From Syntrophobacter sp. SbD2 (lineage in GTDB: Bacteria; Desulfobacterota; Binatia; UBA9968), in assembly GCA_945889495.1 (NCBI GenBank), contig CAMDBU010000015.1:1-60341 (forward strand): a stretch of 60,341 nucleotides of DNA. Reading direction: 5' to 3'. Positions 12,059-38,246 of the stretch are shown one piece after another. The position numbers and the translations under genes were made by a program. Position 1 is the first letter of the stretch; every line of letters begins with the position of its first letter. Under the pieces are notes generated by a model, which saw only the letters and a program-made list of their open reading frames with translations, searched no databases and was not told the DNA's origin.

Positions 12059-14239
12059 ATGACGAGTTCAAAGTTGCTTCGTGCCATTTCCCTGGCGGCG
12101 CTGTTGGGCGGCTTGCTCACGGTGGCGCCGGATCGTCTGAGCAGCCAGCAGGGCGCGACGGTGCGCGCTATTCAAATTGACCGCGACGACATCGGCGGCG
12201 TGGTGGCGAGCGACAAGGGGCCGGAGGCGGGCGTCTGGGTGATCGCCGAGACCACCAACTTGCCGACCAAGTTCGCTAAGATGGTTGTCACCGACGATCA
12301 GGGGCGCTATTTGATTCCCGATTTGCCCAGGGCGAACTACGACATCTGGGTGCGCGGCTACGGCTTGATCGACTCGGCCAAGGTGCGCGCGACGCCGGGG
12401 CGGACGCTCAATTTGCCAGCGGTGACCGCGCCCAGCGAAGCCGCCGCGGCGCAGTATTATCCGGCGATCTACTGGTACTCGATGTTAAAAACTCCCGACA
12501 AGAGTTTTTTCCCCGGCACCGGTGAAAAGGGCAACGGCATGCCGGAGAGTCTCAAGCACCAGGCGCAGTGGTTGGACGTGGTCAAAACCAACGGCTGCAA
12601 CACCTGCCACCAGATGGGCGGCAAAGCGATCCGGACGATCCCCAAAGCGTTGGGCGAATTCAAATCTTCGGCCGACGCCTGGCAGCGGCGCATTGTTTCC
12701 GGACAAGCGATGACCTCGATGCTCAACGCCATCGGCCGGCTCGACGTCAAACGGGCGACGGAACTGTTCGGCGATTGGACCGACCGCATCGCCGCCGGCG
12801 AATTGCCCAAGGCCAAACCGACGCGGCCCCAGGGCGTCGAGCGCAACATCGTGGTCAGCGTGTGGGATTGGAGCAATGCTAAGGCTTATCTCCATGACGA
12901 GATCGCCACCGACAAGCGCAAGCCGACGGTCAACGCCCACGGGCCGGTTTATGGCGCGACTGAATTGAGCACGGATATGGTGCCGGTGCTCAATGCGAAA
13001 AATCATCGCGCCTACGAGATCAAACATCCGGTGCGCGATCCCAACACGCCGTCGGCCAAGACCGATCCGCTGACGCCGTCGCCCTACTGGGGCGCCGAAG
13101 CGATCTGGGACAGCCAGTCGAACCAGCATAATCCGATGATGGATGAGCAGGGGCGGGTGTGGTTCACGGCGCGGGTGCGGCCGTCGGCGAATCCAGACTT
13201 TTGTAAAAAAGGTTCAGACCATCCGTCGGCAAAAGTGTTCCCGCTCAACAACGCCAACCGCCATCTGTCGATGTACGATCCGAAAAGCAAAAAGTTCACG
13301 CTGATCAGTACTTGTTTTTCGACGCACCATTTAGTCTTCGCCGAGGACGCTAATCATACGCTATGGACCAGCGCCGGCGGGCCGGCCAGCGGCGTGGTGG
13401 GGTGGTTGAACCGCAAGCTGTTTGAAGAGACCGGCGACGATCAAAAATCTCAGGGCTGGACGCCCATCGTCCTCGACACCAACGGCAACGGCAAGCGCGA
13501 CGAATGGGTCGAGCCCAATCAGCCGGTGGACCCGGCCAAAGACAAACGCATGGCGGCGGCTTTTTACGGCATCGCCGTCAATCCCGGCGACGGCACGGTG
13601 TGGGGCTCGACGCAGGGATTTCCCAGTGCCATTGTTCGACTCATTCCCGGTAGCAATCCATCCGAGACCGCCCTCGCCGAGTACTACGAAGTACCGTTCG
13701 ACAGTCACGGCGCCTACGGCATCCGCGGCATGGACATCGATCGCAGCGGCGTGGTCTGGTCGTCCTTGGCGAGCGGCCATCTGGCGGCCTTTGACCGGCG
13801 CAAGTGCAAAGGGCCGCTCAACGGCCCCAACGCCACCGGCAAACATTGTCCCGAAGGTTGGACGCTCTACACCCTGCCGGGACCGAACTTCGAAAGTTTG
13901 AACGAACCAAGCGGCAGCGCCGAGTCGAGTTACTACACTTGGGTCGATCAGTTCGACACCTTCGGCTTGGGCAAGGACGTGCCGATTGCCACCGGGAATT
14001 TGAACGATTCGCTCATCGCGCTGGTGGACGGCAAGTTTGTCAACTTGCGCGTGCCCTATCCGCTGGGCTGCTACGCCAAGTGGGCCGACGGCCGCATCGA
14101 CGATCCCCAGGCCGGCTGGAAGGGCAAAGGGTTATGGGCGACCACCGGCACGCGCACGCCGTTCCACATGGAAGGCGGCAAAGGCACAAAGCCCAAGGTG
14201 GTGAAATTTCAATTGCGGCCCGATCCGTTGGCGAAGTGA
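12059..14239 (+). CDS. secreted c-type cytochrome with carboxypeptidase-regulatory-like and propeller-like regions
   Basis: 726-residue exported protein. Residues 1-30 form a signal peptide (hydrophobic core AISLAALLGGLL). Residues 45-130 look like a carboxypeptidase regulatory-like beta-sandwich (GGVVASDKGPEAGVWVIAE, DDQGRYLIPDLP). One haem-c motif, CNTCH, occurs at 180-184, so a cytochrome-like domain covers about 150-260. The C-terminal part (about 330-726) has repeated WFTAR/VWSSLASG-type segments such as DEQGRVWFTAR and MDIDRSGVVWSSL, resembling Vgb/streptogramin-lyase-like beta-propellers. Likely a periplasmic electron-transfer oxidoreductase; the substrate is unknown. Only one CxxCH is seen. 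No partner gene is adjacent, and an IS element follows. Confidence 0.65.
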   Translation: MTSSKLLRAISLAALLGGLLTVAPDRLSSQQGATVRAIQIDRDDIGGVVASDKGPEAGVWVIAETTNLPTKFAKMVVTDDQGRYLIPDLPRANYDIWVRGYGLIDSAKVRATPGRTLNLPAVTAPSEAAAAQYYPAIYWYSMLKTPDKSFFPGTGEKGNGMPESLKHQAQWLDVVKTNGCNTCHQMGGKAIRTIPKALGEFKSSADAWQRRIVSGQAMTSMLNAIGRLDVKRATELFGDWTDRIAAGELPKAKPTRPQGVERNIVVSVWDWSNAKAYLHDEIATDKRKPTVNAHGPVYGATELSTDMVPVLNAKNHRAYEIKHPVRDPNTPSAKTDPLTPSPYWGAEAIWDSQSNQHNPMMDEQGRVWFTARVRPSANPDFCKKGSDHPSAKVFPLNNANRHLSMYDPKSKKFTLISTCFSTHHLVFAEDANHTLWTSAGGPASGVVGWLNRKLFEETGDDQKSQGWTPIVLDTNGNGKRDEWVEPNQPVDPAKDKRMAAAFYGIAVNPGDGTVWGSTQGFPSAIVRLIPGSNPSETALAEYYEVPFDSHGAYGIRGMDIDRSGVVWSSLASGHLAAFDRRKCKGPLNGPNATGKHCPEGWTLYTLPGPNFESLNEPSGSAESSYYTWVDQFDTFGLGKDVPIATGNLNDSLIALVDGKFVNLRVPYPLGCYAKWADGRIDDPQAGWKGKGLWATTGTRTPFHMEGGKGTKPKVVKFQLRPDPLAK

Positions 14240-17378: not shown

Positions 17379-19145
17379 ATGAACCGCAAGTCCGACGCTC
17401 TCACCGTCGCGCTGACTGGACAGCTGCCGTTTATCCTCGTCATCGCCACGGTGCTCGCCTTCTTGGCGTCGTGGTTATTGTTGCGCTTGTACCGCCGCCG
17501 GGTGGTCGCATCCATGCGCCGGCGCAGCACTGGCGAGCTGTTGGAAATCAAAGGTTACCTCGCGCGAGAAGCGGAACATAAACCTAACGACGCACCATTG
17601 AATTTTAGTTTCATCGCCCGTGACTCGAACCATGCGCGCGCCGAAGCTCTCAAGTTGTACCGCCAGGCGCGCCGCCGCCGTTGGCTTAGCGCCACAGTTC
17701 ACGCCATCGCCGGGGTTTGCTTCGCCGCGACCATGACCGCGGGTTTTCTGTCCGCTGGCAAGATGGCTTTTCTACCGTATCGCTTCGCCTATCTAACCTG
17801 GATCCATAGCTGGCCGATCATGATCGCCATCGGCCTGATCGTCGGCCCATCGCGCCGCACTCGAATTATTGGTCTTTTGGGATACTTAGCCCTGGGGACA
17901 AGCGTTGGTGCCATATTGCTCGGGCGCAGCCCGGAGCTGCCGGTCGGTCAGCTGCTCTATCTCTGGCTCGAATTTAACGCCATCCCCACCGTCCTGATCG
18001 CGATCTTTCTCAATCGCCGGATCCGCGCCGTGGGACCGCTGCTGTTGGTGTTCATGGTTATCGGCGTCAGTGGAGCCGTGATCGCGCCCACCTGGCTGGC
18101 CCATAACCCAAAATTTCAAAAGCTGGTGATCGAGCATACGTTCTCCCTCGGCCTGGGCGCTTGGGGCACGCTGATTGGTATTCATCTTGTCGGCTTCGCC
18201 ACCTTCGCTCTGGTCGGCTGGCTGATTTTGGAATTGCTACGCAAGCTCTACGAAAACAAGACGATCAGCGAACAGTCGATCAACGTCGATGCCATGTGGC
18301 TGGTCTTCGGCATCGTCAATTCGATCGGCTTGGTGTTTCAAGGTTACCGCTGGATTTTCAGCGGTCTGGTCGCCTTTGGAATTTATAAATTCACCGCCGC
18401 GCTCTTGTACGACCTCTTCGGCGTCTCGCGACGGACAAACAAGAGCGGGGCGCGCCTGGTGCTGCTGCGCGTTTTCGCCTTAGGCGAACGCAGCGAGCAG
18501 CTCTACGACAGTCTCGGCAAGTCCTGGCGCAATGTCGGCAGCATCCAAATGATCGCCGGACCGGATCGCGTGACCAGCACCGTCGAGCCCCATGAATTCT
18601 TAGACTTCGTCAGCGGCAAATTGGACCGTCGCTTCATCGACAATGGCCAGAGCCTGGATCGTCACGTCGACCGTATGGATCTCAAGCCCGACCGCGAAGG
18701 ACAGCATCGGGTGAGCGAATTTTTCTGCCACGACGACACTTGGAAAATGACCTTGGCGCGCTTGGCCGACGACAGCGATGCGCTGCTGATGGATTTGCGC
18801 GGCTTCTCTCAAGCCAACGCCGGCTGCGTCTTCGAGATCCACGAGATTTTCAACGTTGTGCCGCTGGCGCGGGCGGTGTTCGCCGTCGACGACAGCACCG
18901 ATCAAAGGTTCATGCGCCAGACCATGGAGCATGCTTGGCGCCAAGTGAAGGACCGCTCGCCCAATCGCCGGCTTGCCGCGCCACGGGTGGCGCTGGTCAA
19001 ACTCACCGACGCCGCCAACGATACGATGCAAGATTTGCTCTACGCCATTTGCCACGCCGCCACCGGCGGGACGGTGAGCGCCACGCCGGTCACGCAGCGC
19101 CAGGACATCGACAATCTTCGCGCCGACGATCAGTGGCGATTGTGA
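17379..19145 (+). CDS. multi-spanning membrane protein with C-terminal cytosolic domain
   Basis: 588-residue protein not recognised as a named family. Residues 13-38 form a first membrane helix followed by an Arg-rich cytosolic stretch. Seven or so further hydrophobic segments lie between about 105 and 345 (e.g. AIAGVCFAATMTAGF, MIAIGLIVG, LVFMVIGVSGAVIA, LVGFATFALVGWLI). Residues about 360-588 are soluble and mixed alpha/beta, containing VRLLRVFALG-like and DALLMDLRGFSQANAGCVFEI segments that hint at a nucleotide-binding or effector domain. The start ATG 17379 was chosen over an upstream ATG at 17301 because membrane topology begins there. It overlaps the convergent gene at 19130 by 16 bases. 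Confidence 0.6.
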   Translation: MNRKSDALTVALTGQLPFILVIATVLAFLASWLLLRLYRRRVVASMRRRSTGELLEIKGYLAREAEHKPNDAPLNFSFIARDSNHARAEALKLYRQARRRRWLSATVHAIAGVCFAATMTAGFLSAGKMAFLPYRFAYLTWIHSWPIMIAIGLIVGPSRRTRIIGLLGYLALGTSVGAILLGRSPELPVGQLLYLWLEFNAIPTVLIAIFLNRRIRAVGPLLLVFMVIGVSGAVIAPTWLAHNPKFQKLVIEHTFSLGLGAWGTLIGIHLVGFATFALVGWLILELLRKLYENKTISEQSINVDAMWLVFGIVNSIGLVFQGYRWIFSGLVAFGIYKFTAALLYDLFGVSRRTNKSGARLVLLRVFALGERSEQLYDSLGKSWRNVGSIQMIAGPDRVTSTVEPHEFLDFVSGKLDRRFIDNGQSLDRHVDRMDLKPDREGQHRVSEFFCHDDTWKMTLARLADDSDALLMDLRGFSQANAGCVFEIHEIFNVVPLARAVFAVDDSTDQRFMRQTMEHAWRQVKDRSPNRRLAAPRVALVKLTDAANDTMQDLLYAICHAATGGTVSATPVTQRQDIDNLRADDQWRL

Positions 19146-25042: not shown

Positions 25043-26092
25043 CTACTCCACACCCAGGAGCTTTTTCATCCGCGCGATGATGTCGGCGGGCTGGTTCATA
25101 ACCTCGCGGACGATTTTTTCCAGCTCCTCGCCGGTCACCGGGTCGAGATCGAAGTTACGCTTGTCTAAGTCGGCAAGGAATTCCTTGTCCTCCATGGTTC
25201 GGTTAAAGGCGTCGCGCAAGATTCGCACACGGTCGGCGGGAACTCCCGGAGGCGCGAGCATGGGCCGACCCAGGGCGCCGGAAGCCAACATCACATTGGC
25301 CAGGCGGCGTGAGGCTTCGGGAGTTTTATATTTGTCCATCAGCTCCCAAACCGTCGGCGTGTCCGGCAGTTTGCTATCGCGTTTTTTGCCGGTCTGAATG
25401 ATGTTGCGGACGAAACCCTTCTTGCGCCAGGTATGATAAGGCTCGCGCGACAAAAACGCTTCGATGGTAAAGGACCGGCAATGGATCTCGCCGCGCTCGA
25501 CGGCCAAGTCGATCTCCGGCCCGCCGGGATAGCCCTGGACGAGATTGAATTTAGCGCCGAGCAGCTCTTCAAATAATTTCGGCAGATAATAGGCCGAATC
25601 CGATGTCCCCTGGGCGCCGCAACGCGGCGGCTCCTTGGCGTTGCGCACGTCTTCGATGGTCTTGTAGGGCGTGTCGGCGCGCATGTACATCTGCGACTCG
25701 CCCTGCACCGGCGAGCCGATCCAGACAAACTTCGCCCAATCGAACTGCGCTTCCTTGCGCCCGACCAGCTGGTCGAAATAGAGCGTCGGCACGATCGAAC
25801 CGATGATCGTCAGCCCATCCGGCTTGCTCTTGGTGTAGACATAATTGGCCGCGATCAAATGGCCGGCGCCCGGCATATTCTGCACCACCATGTCGGGCTT
25901 GCCAGGAATATGCTTGCCCATATGCTGGGCCAACACCCGCGACCACTGGTCGTACAACGCGCCAGCCGTGGTGCCGGCGATCACCGTGATCGTCTTGCCT
26001 TTGTAGAAATCGGCCTGGGCATAGAGCGACTGCTCGCCAAAGTGAAGGCCGGCCAGCGCTATGACCACGGCGACGATGCGAAATAACTTCAT
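25043..26092 (-). CDS. TTT-family (Bug) tricarboxylate-type binding protein
   Basis: 349-residue periplasmic binding protein with signal peptide (residues 1-25, LFRIVAVVIALAGLHFG). FYKGKTITVIAGTTAGALYDQWSRVLAQHMGKHIPG and MVVQNMPGAGHLIAANYVY are the classic Bug-family stretches that shape the carboxylate site. Such receptors feed TctAB permeases, but none is seen here, so it is another orphan receptor. It is the last gene of the minus-strand Grd-like island, 95 bp after a GrdE-like gene, and may supply or sense a small carboxylic acid for that island; this is inference from position. Confidence 0.82.
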   Translation of the reverse strand: MKLFRIVAVVIALAGLHFGEQSLYAQADFYKGKTITVIAGTTAGALYDQWSRVLAQHMGKHIPGKPDMVVQNMPGAGHLIAANYVYTKSKPDGLTIIGSIVPTLYFDQLVGRKEAQFDWAKFVWIGSPVQGESQMYMRADTPYKTIEDVRNAKEPPRCGAQGTSDSAYYLPKLFEELLGAKFNLVQGYPGGPEIDLAVERGEIHCRSFTIEAFLSREPYHTWRKKGFVRNIIQTGKKRDSKLPDTPTVWELMDKYKTPEASRRLANVMLASGALGRPMLAPPGVPADRVRILRDAFNRTMEDKEFLADLDKRNFDLDPVTGEELEKIVREVMNQPADIIARMKKLLGVE

Positions 26093-26187: not shown

Positions 26188-27495
26188 TTAGAACAATCTA
26201 CACGCCCAGTTGCCACCGCCCCAATTGTCGACGCCGCCGATGATCATATCGCGGGCGTCGAGGGTTAAAGCGTTGGCCGCTGGTGTGGTCGGCGCGCCGG
26301 GGTAGGTCAGGACGCGGATGTCTTGGTAGGGCCCGACCACTTTCGCCGCGGCGGGCAATTCGATCCAGCGGTCGCGGCTGCCGGTGCTGACCACGGCGTT
26401 GGCCGCCGCGTCGTAAAACAGCAGCGGCGAATCGACGCCGTCCTTGCCGCCATACTCGTAGGTGACCAGCACGGTCTTGATGCTCAAGCGCTCGCAGGCG
26501 CGGATGGTCAACATCATTTCGACAAAGGCGTTGCCCGAACCGAGCCAGGTGAGCAGCACCGCATCGGCGCCAAGACTACGCGCCAGGCGCGCCGTGTTGT
26601 GCGCGACCACTTCCTTGGCGTGATGGGTCTCGTAGGAAATCCGCTCCAAGATCACCCCGGCGAAGTCTAAATCGCCGGCCGCCTGTTGGCGGTATAACGC
26701 CAGCGCCAGCGGATGGTTCTGCCAATCCCAAGTCGTCGGATAGTAGCCGATGCCACGGGTGCTGTTCATGGTCATGGCGCCGTCGAACAATTCGTTGGCA
26801 TGGAGCGCCGTCGGCAACGACTCACGCATCGGCAGGCCGTAGTAACTGACCCCGGCATGGGGCTGCTGCGCCTGGGTGATGCAGCCTTGGATTAAAACTA
26901 CCCGCGGCCGCGCGCCAGTGGCGGTCGGCGTGGCGAAAACTTCCGCGCGCGTTGGCGCTAAGTCTTTAGTCGTCTCGGCGAGCTTGCAAGCGACTTGAAA
27001 CGCCGCCAATTGAATCGCCTGGTGCGCTTCGAGCTCGCCCAAGCCGGCGCGAATTTCCAAGATCAACACTAAATGGCGCAGCGCGCTGAAGCGCGACACC
27101 GCCGCGCCAGCGCCCGACATGTCGAGGATGGCGCTGCGCTCGACGCCGGTGCCGGCGCGTATCGTTCCTTCATAGGCCGCCGTCGCCAGCAGCGTCATGC
27201 CGGACAGCCGGTGTGTCAAGCCATCCCCGACGGTCGCCACCGGCCCGATGACGCCGGGAAACACCTGTGCGTCGGCGCCGAACTTAATCCGCGGTTCGAT
27301 GACATCGCGGATGCCGGTCACGCGCACCGCGTCGCCGGGACTGACGACATCGAAGCGCACCGCAGCGATGCGCGGATCTTGCGCGACCAGCCGAATGAGA
27401 TCGGCCTCGTCAATTTCCAACAAACCCGCTTGATAGCGATGAGTGGCACCAAGACGAATTTGCCGCACGGGAAATTCCGCTAACGTAAGTTGCAT
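26188..27495 (-). CDS. GrdE-like (glycine/sarcosine/betaine reductase component B subunit) protein, paralogue 1
   Basis: 435 residues. Homologous to the proprotein subunit of protein B: MQLTLAEFPVRQIRLG, then VVSPGDAVRVTGIRDVIEPR, VFPGVIGPVATVGDG, then VVLIQGC and WDWQNHPL, LTWLGSGNAFV and TYEYGGKDGVDSPL. In classical GrdE a Cys after GAIVSGN is cut to make a pyruvoyl group; by alignment from memory the same place here (GAMTMNST) has Thr, so the pyruvoyl chemistry may be lost. ATG 27495 is used because the neighbouring paralogue starts the same way (MRLELAEF), rather than at an upstream frame. It lies in a minus-strand island with a Sec-containing GrdB-like gene and binding proteins. Confidence 0.85.
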   Translation of the reverse strand: MQLTLAEFPVRQIRLGATHRYQAGLLEIDEADLIRLVAQDPRIAAVRFDVVSPGDAVRVTGIRDVIEPRIKFGADAQVFPGVIGPVATVGDGLTHRLSGMTLLATAAYEGTIRAGTGVERSAILDMSGAGAAVSRFSALRHLVLILEIRAGLGELEAHQAIQLAAFQVACKLAETTKDLAPTRAEVFATPTATGARPRVVLIQGCITQAQQPHAGVSYYGLPMRESLPTALHANELFDGAMTMNSTRGIGYYPTTWDWQNHPLALALYRQQAAGDLDFAGVILERISYETHHAKEVVAHNTARLARSLGADAVLLTWLGSGNAFVEMMLTIRACERLSIKTVLVTYEYGGKDGVDSPLLFYDAAANAVVSTGSRDRWIELPAAAKVVGPYQDIRVLTYPGAPTTPAANALTLDARDMIIGGVDNWGGGNWACRLF

Positions 27496-27696: not shown

Positions 27697-28698
27697 TTAT
27701 TGGAAGAACCCTTCTTTGTCCAATTTCCGCACGATCGAATCTTCGATAACATTCACCGCCTTGAGCTGGCGGATTTTTTCATTGCCGAGGCCGAGCAGGC
27801 GGATGGCGTTGTTGATGCCCTCGACGTTAGGAAACAGCCGGCGCTCGTAGACGTTGCGAATCACTTCGTAGCCCTCTTCGGCGTCTTCGGGCCGGACGAT
27901 TTGCAAATTTTTCGTCAGCGTCCTGACCACCGCGGCCTTATTCCCCGGCCGTTGAATGAACTCGATCGCTTCGCTCAAAGCGCGGATCACCTTCTCGGCG
28001 ATCGCCGGGTTGGCGCTCAAGTAACTGCGCCGCGCCGAGATCGCCGTGCTTTGAAACGGCACGCCCAACTTGGTCAGGTCGGCCATCACCCGAAAACCCT
28101 GCTTCTTGAGCATGTTGGCGTAGGCATACCCGGCGTAGGTGGCGTCGATGCTGCCCAACATCAAGGACTGCACCATCACTGATTCGTCGCCGACGATGCG
28201 CAAATTGATGCCGTCGCGCTTAGGATCGAGGCCCCAATGTTCGAGCACCAGCTGGGTGATCATCCAGACGCCGCCGCCGATGCTCTGGATGCCGATGTTC
28301 TTGCCTTTCAAATCGGCCGGCGACTGGATCGCCGGCGACGACACAATGGTGCCGTTGAGTTTGTTGGCCAGGCCGGCGATGAACGCCAGATCGAGGCCGT
28401 TGGCGATGGCGCCCAGGATCGAACCGTTGGCCGAACCCGAGTAGAACTGCGCTTCCCCCGCCGACAGCGCCGACAATGCGACCGCGGCGTTGCGCATGTA
28501 AATTAAATTCACGTCGAGATCGTACTTGCGAAAGAAGCCCTGATCGCGCGCCACCAATAAAGCGCCGGCGCCGCGCTCGTTGAGCGAAGCGTAGGAGATG
28601 ACGATCTTGTTAGGCACGGTCGCCGCACCGGCCAATTCCAAAGCGGCGAGAAAAGCGACCCCTTGCAACGCCGAAAATATTTTGAATCTTTTCATCAT
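27697..28698 (-). CDS. NMT1/SsuA-like substrate-binding protein
   Basis: 333-residue exported binding protein. The signal peptide covers about residues 1-25 (FSALQGVAFLAALELAGA). The body shows VISYASLNERGAGALLVARDQGFFRKYDLDVNLIYM, LKGKNIGIQSIGGGVWM, and a C-terminal part common to the other two NMT1-like proteins here. The gene begins 13 nt after the GrdE-like gene at 28712 and is probably co-transcribed with it. Close similarity with the protein at 31858 (shared IGIQSIGGG and related blocks) shows these are paralogues within the island. No permease or ATPase is present. Confidence 0.85.
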   Translation of the reverse strand: MMKRFKIFSALQGVAFLAALELAGAATVPNKIVISYASLNERGAGALLVARDQGFFRKYDLDVNLIYMRNAAVALSALSAGEAQFYSGSANGSILGAIANGLDLAFIAGLANKLNGTIVSSPAIQSPADLKGKNIGIQSIGGGVWMITQLVLEHWGLDPKRDGINLRIVGDESVMVQSLMLGSIDATYAGYAYANMLKKQGFRVMADLTKLGVPFQSTAISARRSYLSANPAIAEKVIRALSEAIEFIQRPGNKAAVVRTLTKNLQIVRPEDAEEGYEVIRNVYERRLFPNVEGINNAIRLLGLGNEKIRQLKAVNVIEDSIVRKLDKEGFFQ

Positions 28699-28711: not shown

Positions 28712-30016
28712 TTAGTAAGCGGAACAGTTCCAGCCGCCCCGTCCCCAATAATCTACGCCGCCGAGAATCATATCGCGGGCGTCCAGCGTGAACGGGCCGC
28801 GCGCCGGGGTCAGCGGCGCCCCCGGATACGTTAGGACTTTGATCGCTTCGTAGGGGCCGACGATTTTCTCCGCCGCCGGCAGCTCGATCCAGCGGTCGCG
28901 GCTGCCGGTGCTGGTCATGGCACTCGCCTCGGCGGTGTAAAATAGCAAAGGCGAATCGACGCCGTCCTTGCCGCCCAATTCGTAGGTGACCAGAGAGGTT
29001 TTAATGCCGCGCCGCTCGCAGGCGCGCAAGGTCAGCATGACGTCGACAAACGCGTTGCCCGAACCGATCCAGGAAACCAGCGCCGCGTCGGCACCCAACA
29101 TGGTCGCCAGCTGCGCGGTATTTTGCGCGATCACTTCCTTGCCATGATGGGTGTCGAAGGCGATCCGTTCGAGGATGACGCCGAGAAAATTAACCGTGCG
29201 CCGGTGCTGGCGGTAAAGACCCAAGAGCAGCGGATGATTCTGCCAATCCCAGGTAACCGGGAAATAGGCCAGGCATCGAGTAGCGTACATCGAGAACGCG
29301 CCGTCGAGAAACTCGTTGGGATGCACCGTAGTCGCGAGTGAATCGCGAATCGGCAGGCCGAAGTAGCCGACGCCGGAGTGCGGATTGCCGGCATCGGTCA
29401 AGCAGCCTTGAATGAGGAGAACCTTCGGCAGCGTCGGGTCGGCGCCGCCCAATTCGAAGACTTCAACTTGCGCCGGCGTCAAGCCGATGGTCACTTCGGC
29501 CAAACGCTTGGCGGTCTCGAAGGCGGCGCGCTGAATGATCCCATGGGCGGCGAGTTCGGATAAACCCTTGGCCAGACGCAGATTCAACACCAAGCCGTTG
29601 AGCGCGCTGAAGGGCGAAGCCGCCGCGCCGACGCCCCACATGTCGAGGATCGTACTGCGCTGCACGCCGAGACCGGCGCGCACCATGCCCTCGTATTCGG
29701 CGGTGACGAAGACCGCCATGCCCGACAGCCGGTGCGTCCGCCCCTCGCCCACCGGCTCCACCGGTCCGAGCACGCCGGGAAACACCTGCCCCGAACCGCT
29801 GACCTTGACCCGCGGCTCGACGACATCGCGAATGCCGGTGACGCGAACCTTTTCACCCGGCGACACAACGTCGAGCCAAGCCGCCTCGATGCGGCTTTCC
29901 TGCAGCACCGCCTGCTCGATCGCGGATTGGTCAACGGTCAGTTGCGTTGCAGAATAATCGAACCGATCGGCGAACTTAATCGCCGATACCGGAAACTCGG
30001 CGAGTTCAAGACGCAT
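28712..30016 (-). CDS. GrdE-like protein, paralogue 2
   Basis: 434 residues. A close paralogue of the protein at 26188, starting MRLELAEFPVSAIKF, with the same blocks: VVSPGEKVRVTGIRDVVEPR, QVFPGVLGPVEPVGEG, LLIQGCLTDAGNPHSG, WDWQNHPL and TYELGGKDGVDSPL. At the expected pyruvoyl-forming position it reads GAFSMYAT, again Thr for the expected Cys. A cysteine two residues later and one near the end (WNCSAY) are not in the equivalent place. It is followed at 13 nt by a binding-protein gene. Functional partner is probably the GrdB-like selenoprotein at 30456, with which it would form a protein-B-like complex; that is inference. Confidence 0.85.
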   Translation of the reverse strand: MRLELAEFPVSAIKFADRFDYSATQLTVDQSAIEQAVLQESRIEAAWLDVVSPGEKVRVTGIRDVVEPRVKVSGSGQVFPGVLGPVEPVGEGRTHRLSGMAVFVTAEYEGMVRAGLGVQRSTILDMWGVGAAASPFSALNGLVLNLRLAKGLSELAAHGIIQRAAFETAKRLAEVTIGLTPAQVEVFELGGADPTLPKVLLIQGCLTDAGNPHSGVGYFGLPIRDSLATTVHPNEFLDGAFSMYATRCLAYFPVTWDWQNHPLLLGLYRQHRRTVNFLGVILERIAFDTHHGKEVIAQNTAQLATMLGADAALVSWIGSGNAFVDVMLTLRACERRGIKTSLVTYELGGKDGVDSPLLFYTAEASAMTSTGSRDRWIELPAAEKIVGPYEAIKVLTYPGAPLTPARGPFTLDARDMILGGVDYWGRGGWNCSAY

Positions 30017-30455
30017 GATGGACCAAGTGAGAATCGAGGTTGCTGATCATGATGACGTTCATAACGAATCTCTGTGCTCAGAACCCAAGGGATATTTCAC
30101 CACGAAGTGTGTCATGAGCTTGCGCACGCCTACAAACAATGAAAATCACCGAAGACGCCTCCAAGGCCCATTTACTCGATCTGTCATTCCCGCGCAGGCG
30201 GGAATCCAGGTGACGGACAAAGTCCGTCATACCGGCGAAGGCCGGTATCCAGGTGTGGCGGAGCGGGTATTAGCCTGGATACCCGCTTTCGCGGGTATGA
30301 CGGAACAGATCCGACCATCCAGCGCATTTGTATTTACTAGGGAGACACGAAGGTTCCGGATAATTAAATTTCCCCGTCCTAACTTTGCGCCTTTGCGTCT
30401 TTGCGGGAGAATCCAAATCTTCCGATCACGAGCCACGAACACGACCACGACATTC
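30017..30455. other. intergenic gap with REP-like and STRR-like repeats
   Basis: 439 bp without a gene. At 30181-30305 there are three REP-like hairpins in a row (see separate entry). 30381-30412 is a single arm of CTTTGCG units, and 30427-30451 a cluster of CACGA units; both lack an inverted partner. The gap separates the GrdB-like gene from the following GrdE-like gene, so they may be in different transcripts. Confidence 0.5.
30181..30305. repeat. REP-like palindromes, three units
   Basis: Three hairpins of the form CATTCCCGC-loop-GCGGGAATCCAGG, GTCATACCGGC-loop and GGATACCCGC-loop-GCGGGTATGACGG follow each other. The same family occurs at 52834-52922. Such elements are scattered copies of RAYT-mobilised repeats. 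Confidence 0.75.
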
Positions 30456-31796
30456 CTACGTGCTCGCCGCGATCTTCGGCGTGAACACCGTCGACGATTC
30501 GACTTTCGCTTCGAGCGCTTTCAGCGCCGTCGAGACAATCTCGCGGCGCAGCTGCGCATCGAGCGCCGCCGGTAGGCTCGGATCGCCGCAGGGATGGGGG
30601 ATCGCCACCGCTTTGACGATGCGGCTGGCGCCGACCTGCTCGGCCACCGGATACATCGCACTGATCATCGCTACTGGGAGATTTGCCCGGTCGAGTTCTT
30701 TGCTAATCACAGCGCCGCTGCGACTACAGGTGCCTCAGGTGGCGACCAGTAAGACCGCTTCGACGCCGTCCTTTTTCAGATCGGCGGCGATCTCCTGGCC
30801 AACCCGGCGCATCACCGCCGGCGAGCCCTGGTTGCCAGGGATAACGTAATAGGCCGGATAAAGTTTGCCGCGGCCGATCCTGCCGTCCGCTTCCAACGAC
30901 CGCAGCGCGTCGAGCGGCATGCCGTAGTGCGGGTTTTGATTCATGAAGGCGACGTTGTAGCCGCCATGCACCGCTTCCCACTTGCCCGCTTCCAACGATT
31001 GCACTTCGGCGAAATTGTACTTGCGCCAAAAAGTATTGCGGTAAGTTTTGAAGCCGTCGGGATTGCCCCAGGGCACCACGCCGCCGGTGCAGATCACCGC
31101 CAGATTGGCGTTGGCCGAATCCGCCAGCGGTGCCGCCGGCTCCACCTGGTCCCACACTTCCATGGGAATCTCAGTGGTGAACGGCTTACCGTCGATCTTG
31201 GCGAGCAGCATCTCGATAGCGCGATCGGCGCCGCTCTTATCGGTTCGCACCAGGCGGCGAATGCCGCGTGGCAGATAACCTTCATCCGCCGCCGGGCCAA
31301 TCTCTTCGCCGTTAGCGAGGCGGCAAGCAAATGGCGCCATGGCCGTCAAAGCCCGCGCCATGCCCGAGGCGGTCTCCGCCGTCGGCAGCAAAAACACTTT
31401 GTCGTTGTGATAATCGCGGTAGACGCCGACGCCGGGATTTTCCGGCTCCATGCCGGTGACGCAGCGCAGCCCGAGCTTCTCACTCAGCATCTGGCAAATC
31501 TCTGCGCAGGCGAGCCCGTAACGGCCAGCGTTGAACGCCGGTCCGGCGACCACGACATCGGGTTTTTGTTTTTCCACCGCAGCGAGCAGCGCCGCCAGCG
31601 CGTCGTCTTTATGCTCGTGAAAATAGTTATCGCCAAAGTAGACGGTGGCGACCACCTGGCCGCGCTCGCCCAGCTGGGTTTGCAGCCCGCGCGCCGCGCC
31701 GATCGTGCCTTCGCTCACGCCGACCGGAATATCCGCCTTGTCCTCACCGCCGATGCCGGCAAAAAATTGATTTAAAATATGAACGATGCGAATCAT
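30456..31796 (-). CDS. grdB: GrdB-like selenoprotein (glycine/betaine/proline reductase family protein B)
   Basis: 446 residues with one in-frame UGA at codon 354 (30735-30737). The first 353 residues are GrdB-like (VVHILNQFFAGIGGEDKAD, GPAFNAGRYGLACAEIC, PHYGMPLDALRSLE). After the UGA the frame continues as GTCSRSGAVISKELDR and then AIPHPCGDPSLP to a stop at 30456, matching the GrdB tail after its Sec. The UGTC form equals the Sec site of protein B, which attacks the C-N bond of glycine, sarcosine or betaine-like substrates via a Schiff base on the GrdE partner. A SECIS-like hairpin sits 18 nt after the UGA. Length (about 440) is right. It is upstream of two GrdE-like genes; GrdA, GrdC and GrdD are not here. 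Automated annotation would split it in two. Confidence 0.9.
30704..30726 (-). promoter_or_regulatory. SECIS-like hairpin for GrdB-like selenoprotein
   Basis: On the minus strand, 10 consecutive pairs (three of them G-U or A-U) close a three-base GGC loop at 30714-30716, with 18 nt between the UGA and the loop. This fits the bacterial SECIS rules and uses the same GGC loop as the AhpD-like gene at 477-493, while the stems differ. Confidence 0.8.
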
Positions 31797-31857: not shown

Positions 31858-32859
31858 TCACTGCCCTTCGATCTTGCGCACGATGCGATCGTCGACCAAA
31901 TCTTCAGCTTTCATCTTACTATATCGCGCATCGGCTTTGCTCAAGACGCGCAGGGCGTTTTGCATCCCCTCGCGGGTCGGCGCCACCCGCCGATCGTAGA
32001 GCAGGCGCATGCGGTCGAATAGCTCGTCGGCGTTGGTATTGGGCGACATGCGCAGCCATTTCTGCGTGCTGCGCACTACCACGGCTTGATTGTTCTTGTC
32101 CTGGACAAAACCCTTGGCTTTGACAAACGCGCGCAGCGTACGCTCGACGACATCGGGAGAGTTGGCGATGAAACCGCGCCGCGCCACCAGACCGGTGCCT
32201 TGATAGGGAATGTTGAGCGTCGTCAAATCAACGAGCAAACGCGCGCCGGTCTTTTGCAGCGCGCTGTTATAGGCATAGCCCCACACCGAGCCGTCGATCA
32301 AATTCTGCGCCATCGCCTGAGCCAACACCGATTGGTCGCCGATCACGCGCATCTGAATCTTGTCGCGCTCCGGCACCAAGCCCCAATGATCCAGCGCCAT
32401 CATGGCGAACATCCAGATGCCGCCGCCGATGCTTTGCACGCCAAGCGTCTTGCCTTTAAGATCGTCGGGCTTTTGGATTTTAGGATTGACGTAGAAGTAG
32501 CCGTCAAGTTTATTGATCATGCCGGCGACCCAGACCAAGTCCAGACCGCTGGCGATGGCACCGAGCGCCGACGCGGTGGCCGATACGGTGTAAAATTCCG
32601 CCTCGTTGGCCGCCATCGCCGCCACCGCCACCGGCCCGGTGTTGACCTGAATAAGATCGGCGTCCAACCCCTGCTCGTCGAAAAATCGTTGATCCTTGGC
32701 GACGAAGAACAGTCCCATGCGCTCGCTGAAGTCGGCGAACAGGATCCGCACCTTCCTGGTCGGCGTCGCCGCCGATGGCGCGGCGACGAAGGTGAATAGC
32801 GACAGGAAGGCAATCAAGATTGCTGTCAAGCGAATCTGCCCGCGGCGTGAATGCGACAT
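31858..32859 (-). CDS. NMT1/SsuA-like substrate-binding protein
   Basis: 333-residue exported protein. Start ATG 32859 follows GGGGAGAAAG on the minus strand with six to seven bases spacing, which decides it over ATG 32874. The signal peptide covers residues 1-30 (LTAILIAFLSLFTFVAAPSA). Blocks VRILFADFSERMGLFFVAKDQRFFDEQGLDADLI and LKGKTLGVQSIGGGIWMF pair it with the paralogue at 27697. It ends 62 bp before the GrdB-like selenoprotein starts and so probably shares its transcript. It likely binds the substrate, or a precursor, of that pathway. No permease is encoded in the window. Confidence 0.85.
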   Translation of the reverse strand: MSHSRRGQIRLTAILIAFLSLFTFVAAPSAATPTRKVRILFADFSERMGLFFVAKDQRFFDEQGLDADLIQVNTGPVAVAAMAANEAEFYTVSATASALGAIASGLDLVWVAGMINKLDGYFYVNPKIQKPDDLKGKTLGVQSIGGGIWMFAMMALDHWGLVPERDKIQMRVIGDQSVLAQAMAQNLIDGSVWGYAYNSALQKTGARLLVDLTTLNIPYQGTGLVARRGFIANSPDVVERTLRAFVKAKGFVQDKNNQAVVVRSTQKWLRMSPNTNADELFDRMRLLYDRRVAPTREGMQNALRVLSKADARYSKMKAEDLVDDRIVRKIEGQ

Positions 32860-32920
32860 ATGCTTTCTCCCCATGATCGACTCCAGCCCGTTGAATAACT
32901 CCGCCGCGAACTCAATGCAA

Positions 32921-33814
32921 TCACGGTTTCAACGCTCCGATGGCGCTGAGCGTCCGGCGCACATCTTCAATCGCCTCAGTCGTCAGCGGCACCTGGGGCG
33001 GCAGCGGCGCGCCCACCGCGTAGCCTTGCAGTTCGAGTGCGCCCTTGATGCAGGCGGCGAGGTTGTACTTGGCGAACGCTTGGTTGAGCGCCCACAGCGG
33101 CCGCTGCAACTCCATGGCGCGGCTCCAGTCGCCGCGCCGGCATGCCTCATACAACTCCACGCTCTGGCGCGGCGCCACGCAAGCCGGCCCGGCCATCCAA
33201 CCGACGCCGCCGATCAACATCACCGTCGCCGGGATATGCGCCGAGGCGGCGAAGACTTTCATGCGCCCGTCGACGAGATTCAAAATCGATAACAGCCGCC
33301 CGGTGTTGTTTGACGCGTCCTTGATGTAACCAATGTTAGCAATCCGACTCAGCCGGTCGATCACCGGCAAGCTTAAATCCGAACGCTGAAAGTTGGGATT
33401 GGTATAGAGCACCACGGGCAGCGAAACGGCGTCGGCGATCGCCGCGAAATAGTTGAACACGCCGTCATCGGAGAGCGGAAAATAAGCTTCGAGGATGGCG
33501 AGAATCCCGTTAGCGCCCATGGCGGCAAACTCGCGCGCCTGCATGGTCGCATCGGCAATCGTCGTCGACGCCACGCCCGCCACCACCGGCACCCGCCCGC
33601 GCGCCGCGTCGATGACGACTTCAACAACCCGTCGCCGCTGCGCCCAGGACAAGTAAGCAAACTCCCCCGTCGACCCCAGCGGCGTCAACCCATGCACGCC
33701 GGCGTTGATTAAGTCATCGCAGAGGCGCGCGAGAACATCGGCTTTGACGTTGCCCGAAGCATCGATGGGTGAAACCAGGTAGGGAAAAACTCCGTGATAA
33801 TCCGCGTGTGCCAT
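32921..33814 (-). CDS. dihydrodipicolinate synthase / N-acetylneuraminate lyase-family aldolase
   Basis: 297-residue class I aldolase. GSTGEFAYL is the pyruvate-carboxylate motif of the family, YTNP follows the tyrosine of the proton relay, and the Schiff-base lysine is in [10 protein letters not shown] (about residue 164). The family condenses or cleaves pyruvate or similar 2-oxoacids with an aldehyde. It is not necessarily DapA, because lysine-pathway genes are not adjacent; here it stands at the upstream end of the Grd-like island and could act on an intermediate of that pathway. Start ATG 33814. Confidence 0.82.
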
Positions 33815-33880
33815 ATTACATCACTCTTCAGTTGTCGGACCGGTACAAAGGGAAAGCGCAAGTGAAGTATAAATCTTCGT

Positions 33881-34246
33881 CTATCGGACTCGAATCCGGT
33901 GCGATTCTACCAATATCAACTTGCCGCGGTAGTCGCCTTGATCCGGATGGCGATCCATGTAGGCCAGCAATCGTTTCATCACGGCCGGAATGATCTCTGG
34001 ACGATTCCGTAATTGAATCGCGATAATGCCGTTAAAATGTGACGGTGGGTAAGTAACGATGTCAGCGAAATCGCCGTTGAGGGATAGCAAAATCGATCCT
34101 AGCCGTTGAGCGTTGGCAATGACCTCGGTGTCGTCAGAGTTCTTCGGCAGGTAATTTCTCAATACCAAGACATCATGCCCGGCATTGGCAAGTGTTTGTA
34201 TGATCTCCGTTGGAACACAATGATCGGCAAAAAGGCGTAGGCTCAT
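33881..34246 (-). CDS. DUF5615 (PIN-like) toxin
   Basis: 121-residue protein with the compact PIN-like/Mut7-C fold of DUF5615: LRLFADHCVPTEIIQTL (first acidic position), GHDVLVLRNYLPKNSDDTEVIANA (second acidic cluster) and ILLSLNGDFADIV. It overlaps the preceding DUF433 gene by one base (TGATG), the standard arrangement for this type II pair. The target is predicted to be RNA. It is separate from the Grd-like island upstream. Confidence 0.82.
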   Translation of the reverse strand: MSLRLFADHCVPTEIIQTLANAGHDVLVLRNYLPKNSDDTEVIANAQRLGSILLSLNGDFADIVTYPPSHFNGIIAIQLRNRPEIIPAVMKRLLAYMDRHPDQGDYRGKLILVESHRIRVR

Positions 34247-34470
34247 CAGCCCGCGAGCTCGTAGTCAGCCAAATCGCGGGCATAATCAAGGCAAGCGTCG
34301 ATTTGCTCAGAGGTCAAATCCGGAAACTCCGCGATTATTTGCTCCTTGGTCCGCCGGTCCGCGAGATAACCAAGTATCAAGCTAACGGGAATTCGCGTGC
34401 CTTTGATCCGGGGTTTCCCCTTCAGCACCGTAGGCGTGCTTTTGATGTGATCTTGCCATCTACATTTCAT
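34246..34470 (-). CDS. DUF433 antitoxin
   Basis: 74-residue VapB45-like antitoxin. KCRWQDHIKSTPTVLKGKPRIKGTRIPVSLIL is replaced by the short signature GKPRIKGTRIPV followed by the winged-helix part EFPDLTSEQIDACLDYARD. The start ATG 34470 is preferred over 34539 because the family starts here. It overlaps the DUF5615 toxin by one base. Confidence 0.82.
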   Translation of the reverse strand: MKCRWQDHIKSTPTVLKGKPRIKGTRIPVSLILGYLADRRTKEQIIAEFPDLTSEQIDACLDYARDLADYELAG

Positions 34471-34548
34471 GGATACACTCCACCCTGACCGATAGACAGA
34501 TCGCTCGACATGACAAAATACTGTGTCGTTTAAACCCAACTGTCAAGC

Positions 34549-35250
34549 TCAGACGCCCGACCTCTCAAAGCCCCAGCTTTCATGCCAGCGCACCTGATGG
34601 ATTTTCATCGCGCCATTCAGTCCAGCGTTACCGGCCATGCGCGCCAAGTCCTCGGCGTTCTCGGGAAAGTCACAGGTGCGAATGTGATCGATAAGTCCGG
34701 CCAGCGCCGCCGCGTCCAAGGTCTGACAGCGACTACCGAGCCAGTCGCAGTAACGGTCCAAATAAAGTTCGCGAGATTCGCCGCTGGCGCGAAAAGTATC
34801 GATGACCAACACCATGCCGCCATCGTTCAGCCTCTCGGCCGCCTGCTGGAAGAAAGCTCGCTTATCCGCTGATAATAAATGATGCAGCGCGAAGCTGGCG
34901 ACGATCAAGTCAAACTTTTCAGCTTCGCATCGCAATCCGGCGCGCAGATCAGCGCGCTGTAATCGTACGGCGCAGCCAAGACCGGCCAGATTTTCCCGTG
35001 CTTCTGCCAGGGCGATTTCCGAAAGATCGTAGCCAACATAGCGACTAACCGCGCGGCCGGCCAATGCCCGCGCCAAATGGAACGCATTGCCGCTACCAAG
35101 ATCGAGCACCGCGAACGGCTTGTGCTCGAACCGCGCCGCTAAGTACGCCGCCACGGCGCCAAAGATATCGTCGTGATGCATGTAGTTGCGCGCCAAGATT
35201 TCCGCGTAGGCCGACCACTGATCGAAGAATTCGTTCTTGGCAGCGTTCAT
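34549..35250 (-). CDS. class I SAM-dependent methyltransferase
   Basis: 233-residue methyltransferase. VLDLGSGNAFHLARAL (motif I, residues 45-60) and YVGYDLSEIALAEARENL (motif II) bind SAM; ADLRAG then DLIVASFALHHL (post II, near 110) complete the fold. The start ATG 35250 overlaps the stop of the MAPEG gene upstream by four bases (ATGA). The substrate is unknown. Coupled to the MAPEG membrane protein. Confidence 0.85.
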   Translation of the reverse strand: MNAAKNEFFDQWSAYAEILARNYMHHDDIFGAVAAYLAARFEHKPFAVLDLGSGNAFHLARALAGRAVSRYVGYDLSEIALAEARENLAGLGCAVRLQRADLRAGLRCEAEKFDLIVASFALHHLLSADKRAFFQQAAERLNDGGMVLVIDTFRASGESRELYLDRYCDWLGSRCQTLDAAALAGLIDHIRTCDFPENAEDLARMAGNAGLNGAMKIHQVRWHESWGFERSGV

Positions 35251-35789
35251 CCGGCCACCCAGGCCAACAAGCGCAGCAGCAATACGATGGCGAGCGACAC
35301 CAACAGAGCGAAATTCGGATAGGCGGTCAGTCCAAAGCCCAAACCGCGCCCCTCGGCGCCGCGCGCGTAACCGAGGGTGAAGAGAATCCGGCCGATGGCG
35401 AACAACACCGCCGCGGCGGGAATGACGCGCAGCCAGCCAAGCGGCAGCGCCACCGCGGCGATCGCATAGGCGCCCAGCGCCAACAGGCATTGCTCCAAAG
35501 TATTCTGCAAGATCGCGCGCAGAATTTGAATTCTCGCCGTCCCCACCGTGAGCCCGCTGCCGTCGATATCCTCCGGGGTGGCGAAGCGATGATTGGCGAC
35601 GCGCGCGATCGAAACCAGCAGCGCTAATAACGGCAGGATCGCCCACCGAAGAGTCCACGCCAGCCGCGCGCCGGGCTCATCGGCCGGCAACGCCGCCGGC
35701 GGAATCAGCGACGACAATCCGAGCGCCGCCAGGACGATGATCGTCGCCAAGCTCACGCTCCGGACTACGGCCATTTGTTTTGGGTTCAC
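35247..35789 (-). CDS. MAPEG-family membrane protein
   Basis: 180-residue four-helix membrane protein. Helices span about 10-30, 47-65 (LAWTLRWAILPLLALLVSIAR), 95-120 and 130-175, and the motif NTLEQCLLALGAYAIA is the MAPEG signature (RaxxNxxE-like N...E). Eukaryotic members are glutathione transferases or leukotriene synthases; bacterial ones are mostly unassigned, so no reaction is claimed. It is translationally coupled to the methyltransferase that follows. Confidence 0.8.
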   Translation of the reverse strand: MNPKQMAVVRSVSLATIIVLAALGLSSLIPPAALPADEPGARLAWTLRWAILPLLALLVSIARVANHRFATPEDIDGSGLTVGTARIQILRAILQNTLEQCLLALGAYAIAAVALPLGWLRVIPAAAVLFAIGRILFTLGYARGAEGRGLGFGLTAYPNFALLVSLAIVLLLRLLAWVAG

Positions 35790-35965
35790 GATTGATACTC
35801 CAACGTCAATTCACCGAAGCCCATCCTACGCCGCAACCGACATCGGCCGCAATATCGCCCATTCCATCAAGTGATGACATCCAGGGATTTTTTAAGTAGA
35901 GTCACCCAGTGGTAGGCGGGCCGCCGAGGCGACCGAACTGCCGGAAAGTTACTGGAGGCTCTCAC

Positions 35966-37246
35966 TTGGAAACCGCGTCGCGTGAATTTCAGATCATGGT
36001 CAAGACCATCGGGGCGATCTGCAACCTCGATTGTCATTACTGCTACTACCTAGAAAAAGAAGAGCTCTATCCCAAAGGCTCCAACTTTCGCCTCGACGAC
36101 AAGACGCTGGAAGAGTACATCAAGCAGCATATCGCGGCGACGCCGGGGGAAACCGTCAGCTTCTCCTGGCATGGCGGCGAGCCGACGCTTTTGGGCGTGG
36201 AATTTTTCCGCAAGGCGGTGGCTTTCCAGAAACAATATCTTCCCGCCACCAAGAAAATCATCAACGGCATCCAGACCAACGGCACGACCATCGACGAAGA
36301 ATGGTGCGAATTTCTCGCTAAGGAGAATTTTTACATCGGCCTCAGCATCGACGGCCCGCGCGAGCTGCACGACCACTACCGGGTCACCAAGGGACAAAAG
36401 ACCACCCACAAGCAAGTGGTCCAGGCCTTCCACATGCTGCGCAAGGCCAAGGTCCACGTCGATCTGTTGTGCGTCGTCCATGACGTCAACGTCAAACATC
36501 CGACCCAGGTCTATCGCTACTTCAAGGAGATCGGCGGCCAGTACTTGCAGTTTCTGCCGCTGGTGGAAAAGACCGGCGATCCGAAGAACCCGGTGCACAA
36601 ACGCTCGGTGCCGTCGGCCGCCTACGGGAGATTTCTAAACACCATCTTCGACGAATGGGTGCGCAACGACATCGGCAAGGTATTTATTCAGCTGTTTGAC
36701 GAGTCTGTGCGGCCGTTCTTGGGCATGGAGCACGCGCTATGCATTTACCGTGAGACCTGCGGCGACGTGCCCGTGGTCGAGCATAACGGCGATTTTTACT
36801 CCTGCGATCATTACGTCCTGCCGGAATATAAAATCGGTAACATCCACGAAACTCCCTTGGCCGAGATGGTCGACGACGCCAGGCAGCGCGACTTCGGCCA
36901 GAAAAAATGGACCAGCCTGCCCAAATACTGCCGCGACTGCGAAGTCTTGAGCATGTGCAACGGCGGCTGCCCCAAAGACCGCATCATCAAGACGCCGGAT
37001 GGCGAAGAAGGTTTGAATTATCTGTGCGCCGGGTTAAAAGGATTTTTCACCCACAGCAAACCCTACTTCCAAGAGTTCGCCAAGCTGGTCGAAGCCGGCG
37101 AGCCCATTGAAAAACTCATGAGCGTCGTGCGCGCCGCCGAAGCCAAAGCCTCAGTGCCCCAAGCCGGCCGCAACGACCCCTGCCCCTGCGGTAGCGGCAA
37201 GAAGTATAAACGCTGCTGCGCCGGCGCCGCACGCGCGGGCGCGTGA
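35966..37246 (+). CDS. anaerobic sulfatase maturase-like radical SAM/SPASM protein with SEC-C tail
   Basis: 426 residues. The start is TTG 35966 behind GGAGG (35954-35958). KTIGAICNLDCHYCYYLEKEE carries the radical SAM CxxxCxxC, SWHGGEPTLLG the GGEP SAM-binding motif, and the middle the anSME segment CRETCGDVPVVEHNGDFYSCDHY. The SPASM auxiliary clusters use CRDCEVLSMCNGGCPKDR. The C-terminal 19 residues form a SEC-C zinc motif (PCPCGSGKKYKRCC). The enzyme converts a Cys or Ser of a partner to formylglycine. No sulfatase gene lies within the window, so its target is elsewhere or is not a sulfatase. A promoter must lie in 35790-35960. Confidence 0.88.
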   Translation: METASREFQIMVKTIGAICNLDCHYCYYLEKEELYPKGSNFRLDDKTLEEYIKQHIAATPGETVSFSWHGGEPTLLGVEFFRKAVAFQKQYLPATKKIINGIQTNGTTIDEEWCEFLAKENFYIGLSIDGPRELHDHYRVTKGQKTTHKQVVQAFHMLRKAKVHVDLLCVVHDVNVKHPTQVYRYFKEIGGQYLQFLPLVEKTGDPKNPVHKRSVPSAAYGRFLNTIFDEWVRNDIGKVFIQLFDESVRPFLGMEHALCIYRETCGDVPVVEHNGDFYSCDHYVLPEYKIGNIHETPLAEMVDDARQRDFGQKKWTSLPKYCRDCEVLSMCNGGCPKDRIIKTPDGEEGLNYLCAGLKGFFTHSKPYFQEFAKLVEAGEPIEKLMSVVRAAEAKASVPQAGRNDPCPCGSGKKYKRCCAGAARAGA

Positions 37247-37254
37247 GGGAGATT

Positions 37255-37335
37255 GTGTTCGTGGTTCGTGATCGTGATCGTCTCGGAACCACAGCGGATC
37301 TCATCCTCCGAGCCACGAGCACGAGCACGAACACG
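37255..37335. repeat. STRR-like inverted pair (tcgtg units)
   Basis: TTCGTGATCGTG-type units (37255-37280) are inverted as CACGAGCACGAACACG (37312-37335). They lie between two convergently... in fact co-oriented genes, so a terminator or mRNA-stability role is possible. Confidence 0.65.
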
Positions 37336-37355
37336 TAGCGACGAAGGAGCTAGCC

Positions 37356-38246
37356 ATGACCCTGTACGACGACATGATGGAAGGCGTCATCGACGTTCAC
37401 TGCCATATCGATTTCGAGTTTTCCGCGAAGGAGCGCAAGCGCGAGCCGGAGTTTCTCTGGATCCCCAAGGCCGATGCCATGGGCATGCGCGGCGTGGTGT
37501 TGAAGTCGCACTGGTGGCCGACCGCCAACGTCGTGCCCTATATCGCCGCGACGACGCCGAGCAAAGTTGAGATTTGGTCGAGCGTGGTCTTGAACGCCAC
37601 CGCCGGCGGTCCGAGCCCATGCATCGTCGAAGCCTGCGCCGAGCTCGGCGGCAAGATGGTTTTCCTGCCGACCTGGAGCGCGCGCAACGACGTCCAACAC
37701 AAAGGCTTCAGCCACCGCATTCAAACTTATTATAAAAGCCACGCCACGCTGGAAAATCCCAACTATTATTTTCTCGATGATAAAGGAAAACTGATTCCAC
37801 GCGGCCATGAAATCATCGAAGCGTGCAAGTCTCACGACCTCACCCTCGGCATGGGGCATGTGTCCTGGCAGGAGTCCCTGGCGTTTATCGCCGCGGCGCG
37901 CGACCTGGGTTACAGCCACCGGCTAGTGATCAACCACGCCCAGGCGCATATGATCAACATGCCGGTGGACGCGCAAAAACAGGCCGCCGACTTGGGCGCG
38001 TTTGTCGAGTCGTGCTGGAATGCGTTGGCACCGGGGCGACTTGACCCGGCACAGTTGGTCGCGCAATTTCGCGCCGTCGGCCTGCACCAGATCGTCGCCA
38101 GCACCGACTACTTCCGCCCTTACAGTCCGAACCCAGGCGAGCTGTTTAGAATGTACTTAGGGATGTTGCACGAAGGTGGTCTGAGCAAAGGCGAAGTTAA
38201 TCAAGTGGCGGCGATCAATCCAGCCCGGCTCATGGGACTGGCTTAA
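37356..38246 (+). CDS. DUF6282-family metal-dependent hydrolase (amidohydrolase-like)
   Basis: 296-residue TIM-barrel protein. GVIDVHCHIDFEF carries the HxH metal pair, LKSHWWPTANV and GMGHVSWQES and INHAQAH supply further histidines, and ASTDYFRPYS the terminal aspartate. These match the amidohydrolase metal set, though without the usual lysine-carbamate marker. DUF6282 members are uncharacterised. ATG 37356 follows AAGGAG at 37344-37349. It is 110 bp after the radical SAM gene and may be expressed separately, because a repeat lies between them. Confidence 0.75.
   Translation: MTLYDDMMEGVIDVHCHIDFEFSAKERKREPEFLWIPKADAMGMRGVVLKSHWWPTANVVPYIAATTPSKVEIWSSVVLNATAGGPSPCIVEACAELGGKMVFLPTWSARNDVQHKGFSHRIQTYYKSHATLENPNYYFLDDKGKLIPRGHEIIEACKSHDLTLGMGHVSWQESLAFIAAARDLGYSHRLVINHAQAHMINMPVDAQKQAADLGAFVESCWNALAPGRLDPAQLVAQFRAVGLHQIVASTDYFRPYSPNPGELFRMYLGMLHEGGLSKGEVNQVAAINPARLMGLA

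Follow-up and report, generated by a model that had tools for sequence, protein, structure and literature searches.

A predicted Grd-type selenoprotein B with a conserved in-frame UGA and GrdE partners lacking the pyruvoyl cysteine in a Binatia genome

The window, a stretch of 60,341 nucleotides from the Binatia assembly Syntrophobacter sp. SbD2, encodes a protein that is assigned by its profile matches to the Grd-type selenoproteins B, as a member of the TIGR01918 subfamily. Decoding of its in-frame UGA as selenocysteine at residue 354 is strongly supported by sequence comparison. The gene belongs to a diversified branch of the known Grd enzyme system, and 'glycine reductase' is the wrong name; its product is probably something other than a glycine reductase and would reduce some other compound. 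The explanation that we consider likely as a whole is that of a substrate-specific, non-pyruvoyl protein B that is completed by readthrough at Sec354, works with a GrdE-type partner and would pass its product on to GrdA and GrdC.

The grdB gene lies on the minus strand (30456..31796), with an ATG at 31796, an in-frame TGA at 30737-30735 and a TAG at 30458-30456. The 446-residue product has U354 within the sequence VATUGTCSRSG, and the frame contains a single in-frame TGA. If the codon is not recoded, ORF calling breaks the frame into ORFs of 353 and 84 aa, as had been expected of gene callers that treat UGA as a stop. Since standard annotation splits grdB genes in this way, the whole family is easily missed. 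The complete product scores 460 bits against TIGR01918 (cut-off 65.45) and 398 bits against PF07355 (cut-off 22). Each half also passes TIGR01918 alone, the part before the TGA with 346.1 bits over model positions 1-345 and the part beyond it with 77.5 bits over positions 357-430, which bears out the claim of the original prediction that homology continues in frame past the UGA to the stop at 30456.

Homologous frames were taken from the assembly of the window (G000), its relatives and named contigs, the latter being MAGs labelled Candidatus Binatia or Deltaproteobacteria. Removal of one 5' half that falls short of the Sec site and of two duplicates from 86 distinct frames leaves 83. The codon at the Sec site is TGA in all 83 and a cysteine codon in none, and the frame beyond it is intact in every copy. 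The UGA at 30735-30737, which reads T-U-G-T-C (motif UGTCSRS), is in the selenocysteine place of protein B, as proposed. Its recurrence in independent assemblies serves in place of a read-level comparison with TGT/TGC, which the original prediction had named as a check. The two preceding residues are ST in 47 copies, AT in 31 and SA in 5. Several copies have a second in-frame TGA ∼80 to 95 codons beyond the Sec codon, at the place of the stop in other copies; these are read as stop codons.

The original prediction also described a hairpin with a GGC loop 18 nt past the UGA, and such a structure is present. The SECIS-type hairpin (30707..30723, minus strand; CGCAGC-GGC-GCUGUG) consists of seven pairs with the loop at 30714-30716, and its assignment draws on its sequence, covariation, a synonymous-shuffle test and a weak match to SECIS_4. 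The 83 copies keep a mean of 6.84 of the seven pairs, against 3.40 ± 0.12 in synonymous-codon shuffles, a value reached by 0 of 300 shuffles. When each of 10 clusters is represented by a single member, 6.80 pairs are kept against 3.67 ± 0.33 (0/300), and the folding energy of these members is −14.66 against −12.73 ± 0.85 (2/300). In 75 distinct 45-nt sequences the share of paired cells is 97.5%, compared with 93.9% in shuffles, and the number of cells with changes on both sides is 14, compared with 1.1. Two weaker measures, the three pairs with both sides changed and the further pair types, are reached by 9 and 86 of 500 shuffles, respectively, and two of the seven pairs are invariant. One case of covariation is the replacement of AGC...GCT (Ser, Ala) by TGC...GCA (Cys, Ala), in which the alanine change is silent and the pair is kept. 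The window hairpin by itself exceeds its shuffles only modestly (z = −1.61), and single-copy z values are near or above zero in a minority of homologues. Rfam SECIS_4 matches the place and strand of the hairpin at 14.8 bits (E = 1.1; gathering score 38 bits), and a scan of the whole window at the gathering threshold found no Rfam family.

Absence of selABCD and tRNA-Sec from the genome had been named as grounds for rejecting the selenoprotein. The selA (33826-35157), selB (35235-37118) and selD (37215-38141) genes are clustered on contig C26 of the window genome (33826-38141), and tRNA-Sec is found on contig C78 (3210-3300), all four over their cut-offs. Of 35 genomes, 32 have a selA over its cut-off, 29 a selB, 31 a selD and 25 a tRNA-Sec. 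This machinery, the conserved TGA and the TIGR01918 score together uphold the proposal of a GrdB-type selenoprotein with a recoded UGA. The selD gene itself contains one in-frame TGA that is common to most relatives, so the SelD of the window genome is probably a selenoprotein too.

The grdB gene is part of a run of seven minus-strand genes. In order, these encode a DapA/DHDPS-superfamily protein at the head (32921..33814), an NMT1/SsuA-type periplasmic substrate-binding protein directly upstream of grdB (31858..32874), GrdB, a GrdE-type partner subunit (GrdE1, 28712..30016, 434 aa; PF09338 289 bits), a second NMT1/SsuA-type substrate-binding protein (27697..28698), a second GrdE-type subunit (GrdE2, 26188..27492, 434 aa from the homologous start; PF09338 286 bits) and, last, a TctC-type substrate-binding protein (25043..26092). 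The ORF listing puts the start of grdE2 at an upstream TTG (27657). In the same-genus genome G001 the first six genes of the run occur in identical order, with a DapA-superfamily relative again at the head. The original prediction placed grdB beside orphan binding proteins, a description that is not supported, as two grdE genes follow it in the window and a grdE adjoins it on the same strand within 600 bp in 72 of 75 copies at the fetched loci. The three copies with no adjacent grdE lie close to where the fetched sequence ends. Seven related loci (L073, L077, L078, L079, L080, L081 and L149) have the order grdB-grdE-grdC-grdA, and their grdB genes belong to the clade of 67-71% identity around the window copy.

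Of the 49 grdB copies flanked on either side by 2.5 kb or more, 25 have a same-strand substrate-binding protein gene within 2.5 kb. A specific link between the two does not follow from this, as binding-protein genes are common throughout these loci, at 1.15 per 10 kb. Promoter and terminator scans gave no excess over shuffles. Between grdB and grdE1, positions 30180-30304 contain direct and inverted repeats (a 33-nt pair and 31-nt inverted arms) that are REP-like in appearance. A radical SAM protein is encoded on the plus strand at 35909-37246 (478 bits; anaerobic sulfatase maturase cut-off 349), and one is also found near the G001 copy.

The GrdE partners bear on the choice of substrate. In Clostridioides difficile, according to the available part of PMC9908766, a peptide from GrdE position 242 bears a pyruvoyl group derived from cysteine. 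In an alignment of 83 GrdE sequences, two of them canonical, the column examined is that of Cys242 in Peptoclostridium acidaminophilum GrdG; the GrdE of A. noterae and Photobacterium have SGNC at this place. The column is cysteine in 0 of 81 GrdE relatives, including both window subunits, and it is Phe in GrdI of the E. gilvus betaine system. The lack of a pyruvoyl cysteine in all 81 partners argues against glycine as the substrate; neither this nor the multi-copy nature of the family figured in the original prediction. GrdE1 of the window has Thr at the column and a Cys two residues downstream, an arrangement found in 6 of the 81 copies; the placement of this Cys makes a shifted processing site conceivable, and these six may have one.

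The further components of the system are found in relatives of the window genome. The GrdA cut-off is exceeded in 24 of the 35 genomes and the GrdC cut-off in 22. GrdB, counted at hits above 200 bits, and GrdA occur together in 23 genomes, GrdB only in five, GrdA only in one and neither in six (Fisher p = 0.0017, uncorrected for relatedness). GrdA is canonical by NF040748. A swapped redox motif was considered for the Binatia GrdA, which reads CFVU, and was rejected as the E. gilvus translation has the identical motif. The Cys of the GrdC FCA motif is kept in all four Binatia sequences aligned with E. gilvus GrdC. Neither grdA nor grdC was found in the G000 assembly, and both are present in the same-genus genomes G001 and G002. 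In G001, homology to G000 contig C78 runs up to the end of that contig, and grdC and grdA follow 2.3 kb and ∼4 kb further on. This fits an assembly gap, and the absence is possibly due to such a contig break. A true loss is possible as well, because the further flank of the sister is absent from G000: positions 1 to ∼11,200 of the sister contig have no counterpart there except short repeat matches.

Two repeated segments were observed at locus L071. About 113 bases (17637-17749) recur close to the termini of several tens of contigs in G000, and this repeat probably breaks the assembly. Positions 11229-12137, which include an ABC-type substrate-binding protein gene, have many diverged copies on C133, C62, C120 and other contigs of G000.

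The output of the pathway may differ from that of the canonical one. GrdD adjoins GrdC in three control operons (E. gilvus, A. noterae and Photobacterium sp. DA100), and with the one GrdD model used it passes the cut-off in 0 of the 35 genomes. Matches of at most 28 bits occur in 25 genomes and resemble PlsX, a relative of GrdD. Acetate kinase is patchy, with ackA over its cut-off in 17 genomes and no match in 16, including G000, G001, G002, G028 and G033. The heme-copper oxidase COX1 is over its cut-off in six of six genomes checked, which suggests oxygen respiration.

The following mechanism is proposed. SelB and tRNA-Sec would decode UGA354 as selenocysteine, aided by the downstream hairpin. 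Protein B and its GrdE-type partner would bind a substrate of the form X-CH2-COO-. Because the partners have no cysteine convertible to a pyruvoyl group, no Schiff base would form, unlike with glycine or sarcosine, and the selenolate would attack the carbon directly as X departs. Direct attack of this kind has reportedly been proposed for the betaine and fluoroacetate enzymes. The carboxymethyl group would move to GrdA, and GrdC would form an acetyl thioester, as the operon of relatives suggests. More speculatively, CoA would be a likelier acceptor of the acetyl group than phosphate, since no GrdD was found.

A conventional protein B of glycine, sarcosine or betaine reductase, serving a Stickland-type fermentation that yields acetyl phosphate and ATP, would account for the overall family, for the core motifs common to P. 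acidaminophilum GrdF and E. gilvus GrdH, for the canonical GrdA and for the active-site-type Cys in the four GrdC proteins; the betaine-type enzyme likewise lacks the pyruvoyl cysteine. Such an assignment is nonetheless improbable. The window GrdB falls under the cut-offs of the glycine equivalog TIGR01917 (424.3 bits, cut-off 602.2) and of the exception models for sarcosine (GrdF; 437.4 bits, cut-off 800) and betaine (GrdH; 394.3 bits, cut-off 775). The GrdB and GrdF motifs given in the accessible text of PMC9751293 match 0 of the 83 copies, 80 of which are longer than 380 aa, and do match the A. noterae, Photobacterium and P. acidaminophilum controls. The lack of GrdD, the COX1 genes and the missing ackA matches in G000 and the four other genomes also stand against it, the last of these tempered by the presence of ackA in 17 genomes.

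Reductive dehalogenation of a two-carbon acid, or reductive loss of some other good leaving group from it, in the manner of the fluoroacetate reductase proposed in Synergistota, has a small probability. FarE, like the GrdE partners described here, and also GrdI are reported without processing cysteines in the available part of PMC10838667, where FarB is reported without CxxC; the UxxC cysteine is missing in 31 of the 83 protein B copies. On the other side, UxxC is kept in the window copy, as in 52 of the 83, five of which keep the third Cys too; GrdE1 and GrdE2 score 103.2 and 95.5 bits against a FarE cut-off of 675; and the neighbourhood contains no organohalogen-specific gene. The redox motif of the window, UGTCSRS, has Ser in place of the third Cys of UxxCxxC, a motif that the TIGR01918 subfamily model does not require in full. 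The Ser of an STUG motif was suggested as a source of formylglycine in FarB (PMC10838667, as far as its text was available), an idea set aside for the window copy, which has ATUG.

If the UGA were a true stop, grdB would be a pseudogene, or would yield a truncated protein beside an independent small ORF. This reading could draw on the modest stability of the window hairpin and the sub-threshold SECIS_4 match, but has almost no chance of being correct given the TGA and intact downstream frame shared by all 83 homologues, a hairpin conserved beyond synonymous-codon shuffles and the Sec machinery of the same genome.

Structural comparisons of the proposed substrate-specific protein B were uninformative on mechanism. 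The AlphaFold2 model is of middling quality (mean pLDDT 77.8, pTM 0.52), Foldseek against the PDB gave no usable fold match (best E 9.3e-5, TM-scores ∼0.2), and phmmer against PDB sequences gave no match for GrdB and one chance-level match for GrdE.

The number of grdB genes varies among genomes. Three copies are present in the window genome, together with a distant PrdB-like relative that has a TGA, while G012 has 20 full-length copies in an 8.3-Mb bin with an estimated contamination of 9%. The two assemblies of highest completeness, G028 (one contig) and G033 (four contigs), contain three copies apiece, PrdB-like hits aside. No match was found in 17 of 58 genomes, and matches in the wider class are mostly distant. 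Locus L074 (positions 1-19500 of contig C122 in the 9% contaminated G012 bin) holds three grdB, four grdE and a grdA in 19.5 kb. The PrdB-like protein of the window genome (C101:17996-18415) has an in-frame TGA and scores 69.6 bits on TIGR04483, and distant TGA-containing PrdB-like matches also occur in other class members. A FastTree phylogeny was built from 80 Binatia-group sequences and four controls. The controls form one clade (support 0.985), next to which stand five Binatia copies carrying UGTCTRC or UGSCTRC (0.852), and the window falls in a separate clade. Support is weak at several deep nodes, such as one with 0.601.

Glycine-reductase chemistry is familiar from amino-acid fermenters, and the Binatia are an uncultured group described as aerobic. 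It is possible, and proposed here only tentatively, that Binatia with heme-copper oxidase genes have diversified a Sec-dependent reductive cleavage of C-heteroatom bonds up to ∼20-fold, with many non-pyruvoyl protein B types for varied substrates feeding one or two GrdA and one or two GrdC, and with acetyl-CoA formed without GrdD for carbon assimilation and not fermentation. If true, a large selenoprotein B family without pyruvoyl cysteine and GrdD would broaden the range of substrates and outputs open to selenium-carbon chemistry, and selenium-dependent use of further compounds would be predicted in soil and groundwater. Among the matches listed in a literature search with subscription journals and preprints outside its scope, no paper joins Binatota with glycine reductase or selenoproteins, and the main text of the Binatota genome paper PMC8262859 has no mention of 'seleno' or 'glycine reductase'.

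Compared with protein B of the GrdB, GrdF and GrdH types (TIGR01918, PF07355), the window protein is alike in length, core motifs, UGA position, SECIS-type hairpin and adjacent GrdE-type gene, whereas it differs in the Ser at the third Cys, in lacking the glycine- and sarcosine-type motifs and in missing the equivalog cut-offs. The D-proline reductase protein PrdB (TIGR04483) is related in its C-terminal half, yet the score of 78.8 bits is far under the cut-off of 300. In the canonical grd operon of E. gilvus, A. noterae and Photobacterium sp. DA100, GrdD stands beside GrdC, in contrast with the Binatia-group genomes; their Binatia relatives share the CFVU of GrdA and the conserved Cys of GrdC. 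The GrdE-type subunits resemble E. gilvus GrdI and the reported FarE (PMC10838667, in its available part) in having no pyruvoyl-forming cysteine, although they score under the FarE cut-off. Finally, the neighbours in the window are periplasmic binding proteins, whereas the E. gilvus betaine system has a BCCT transporter and the fluoroacetate operon, as reported in the same portion of PMC10838667, has an antiporter and a radical SAM gene.
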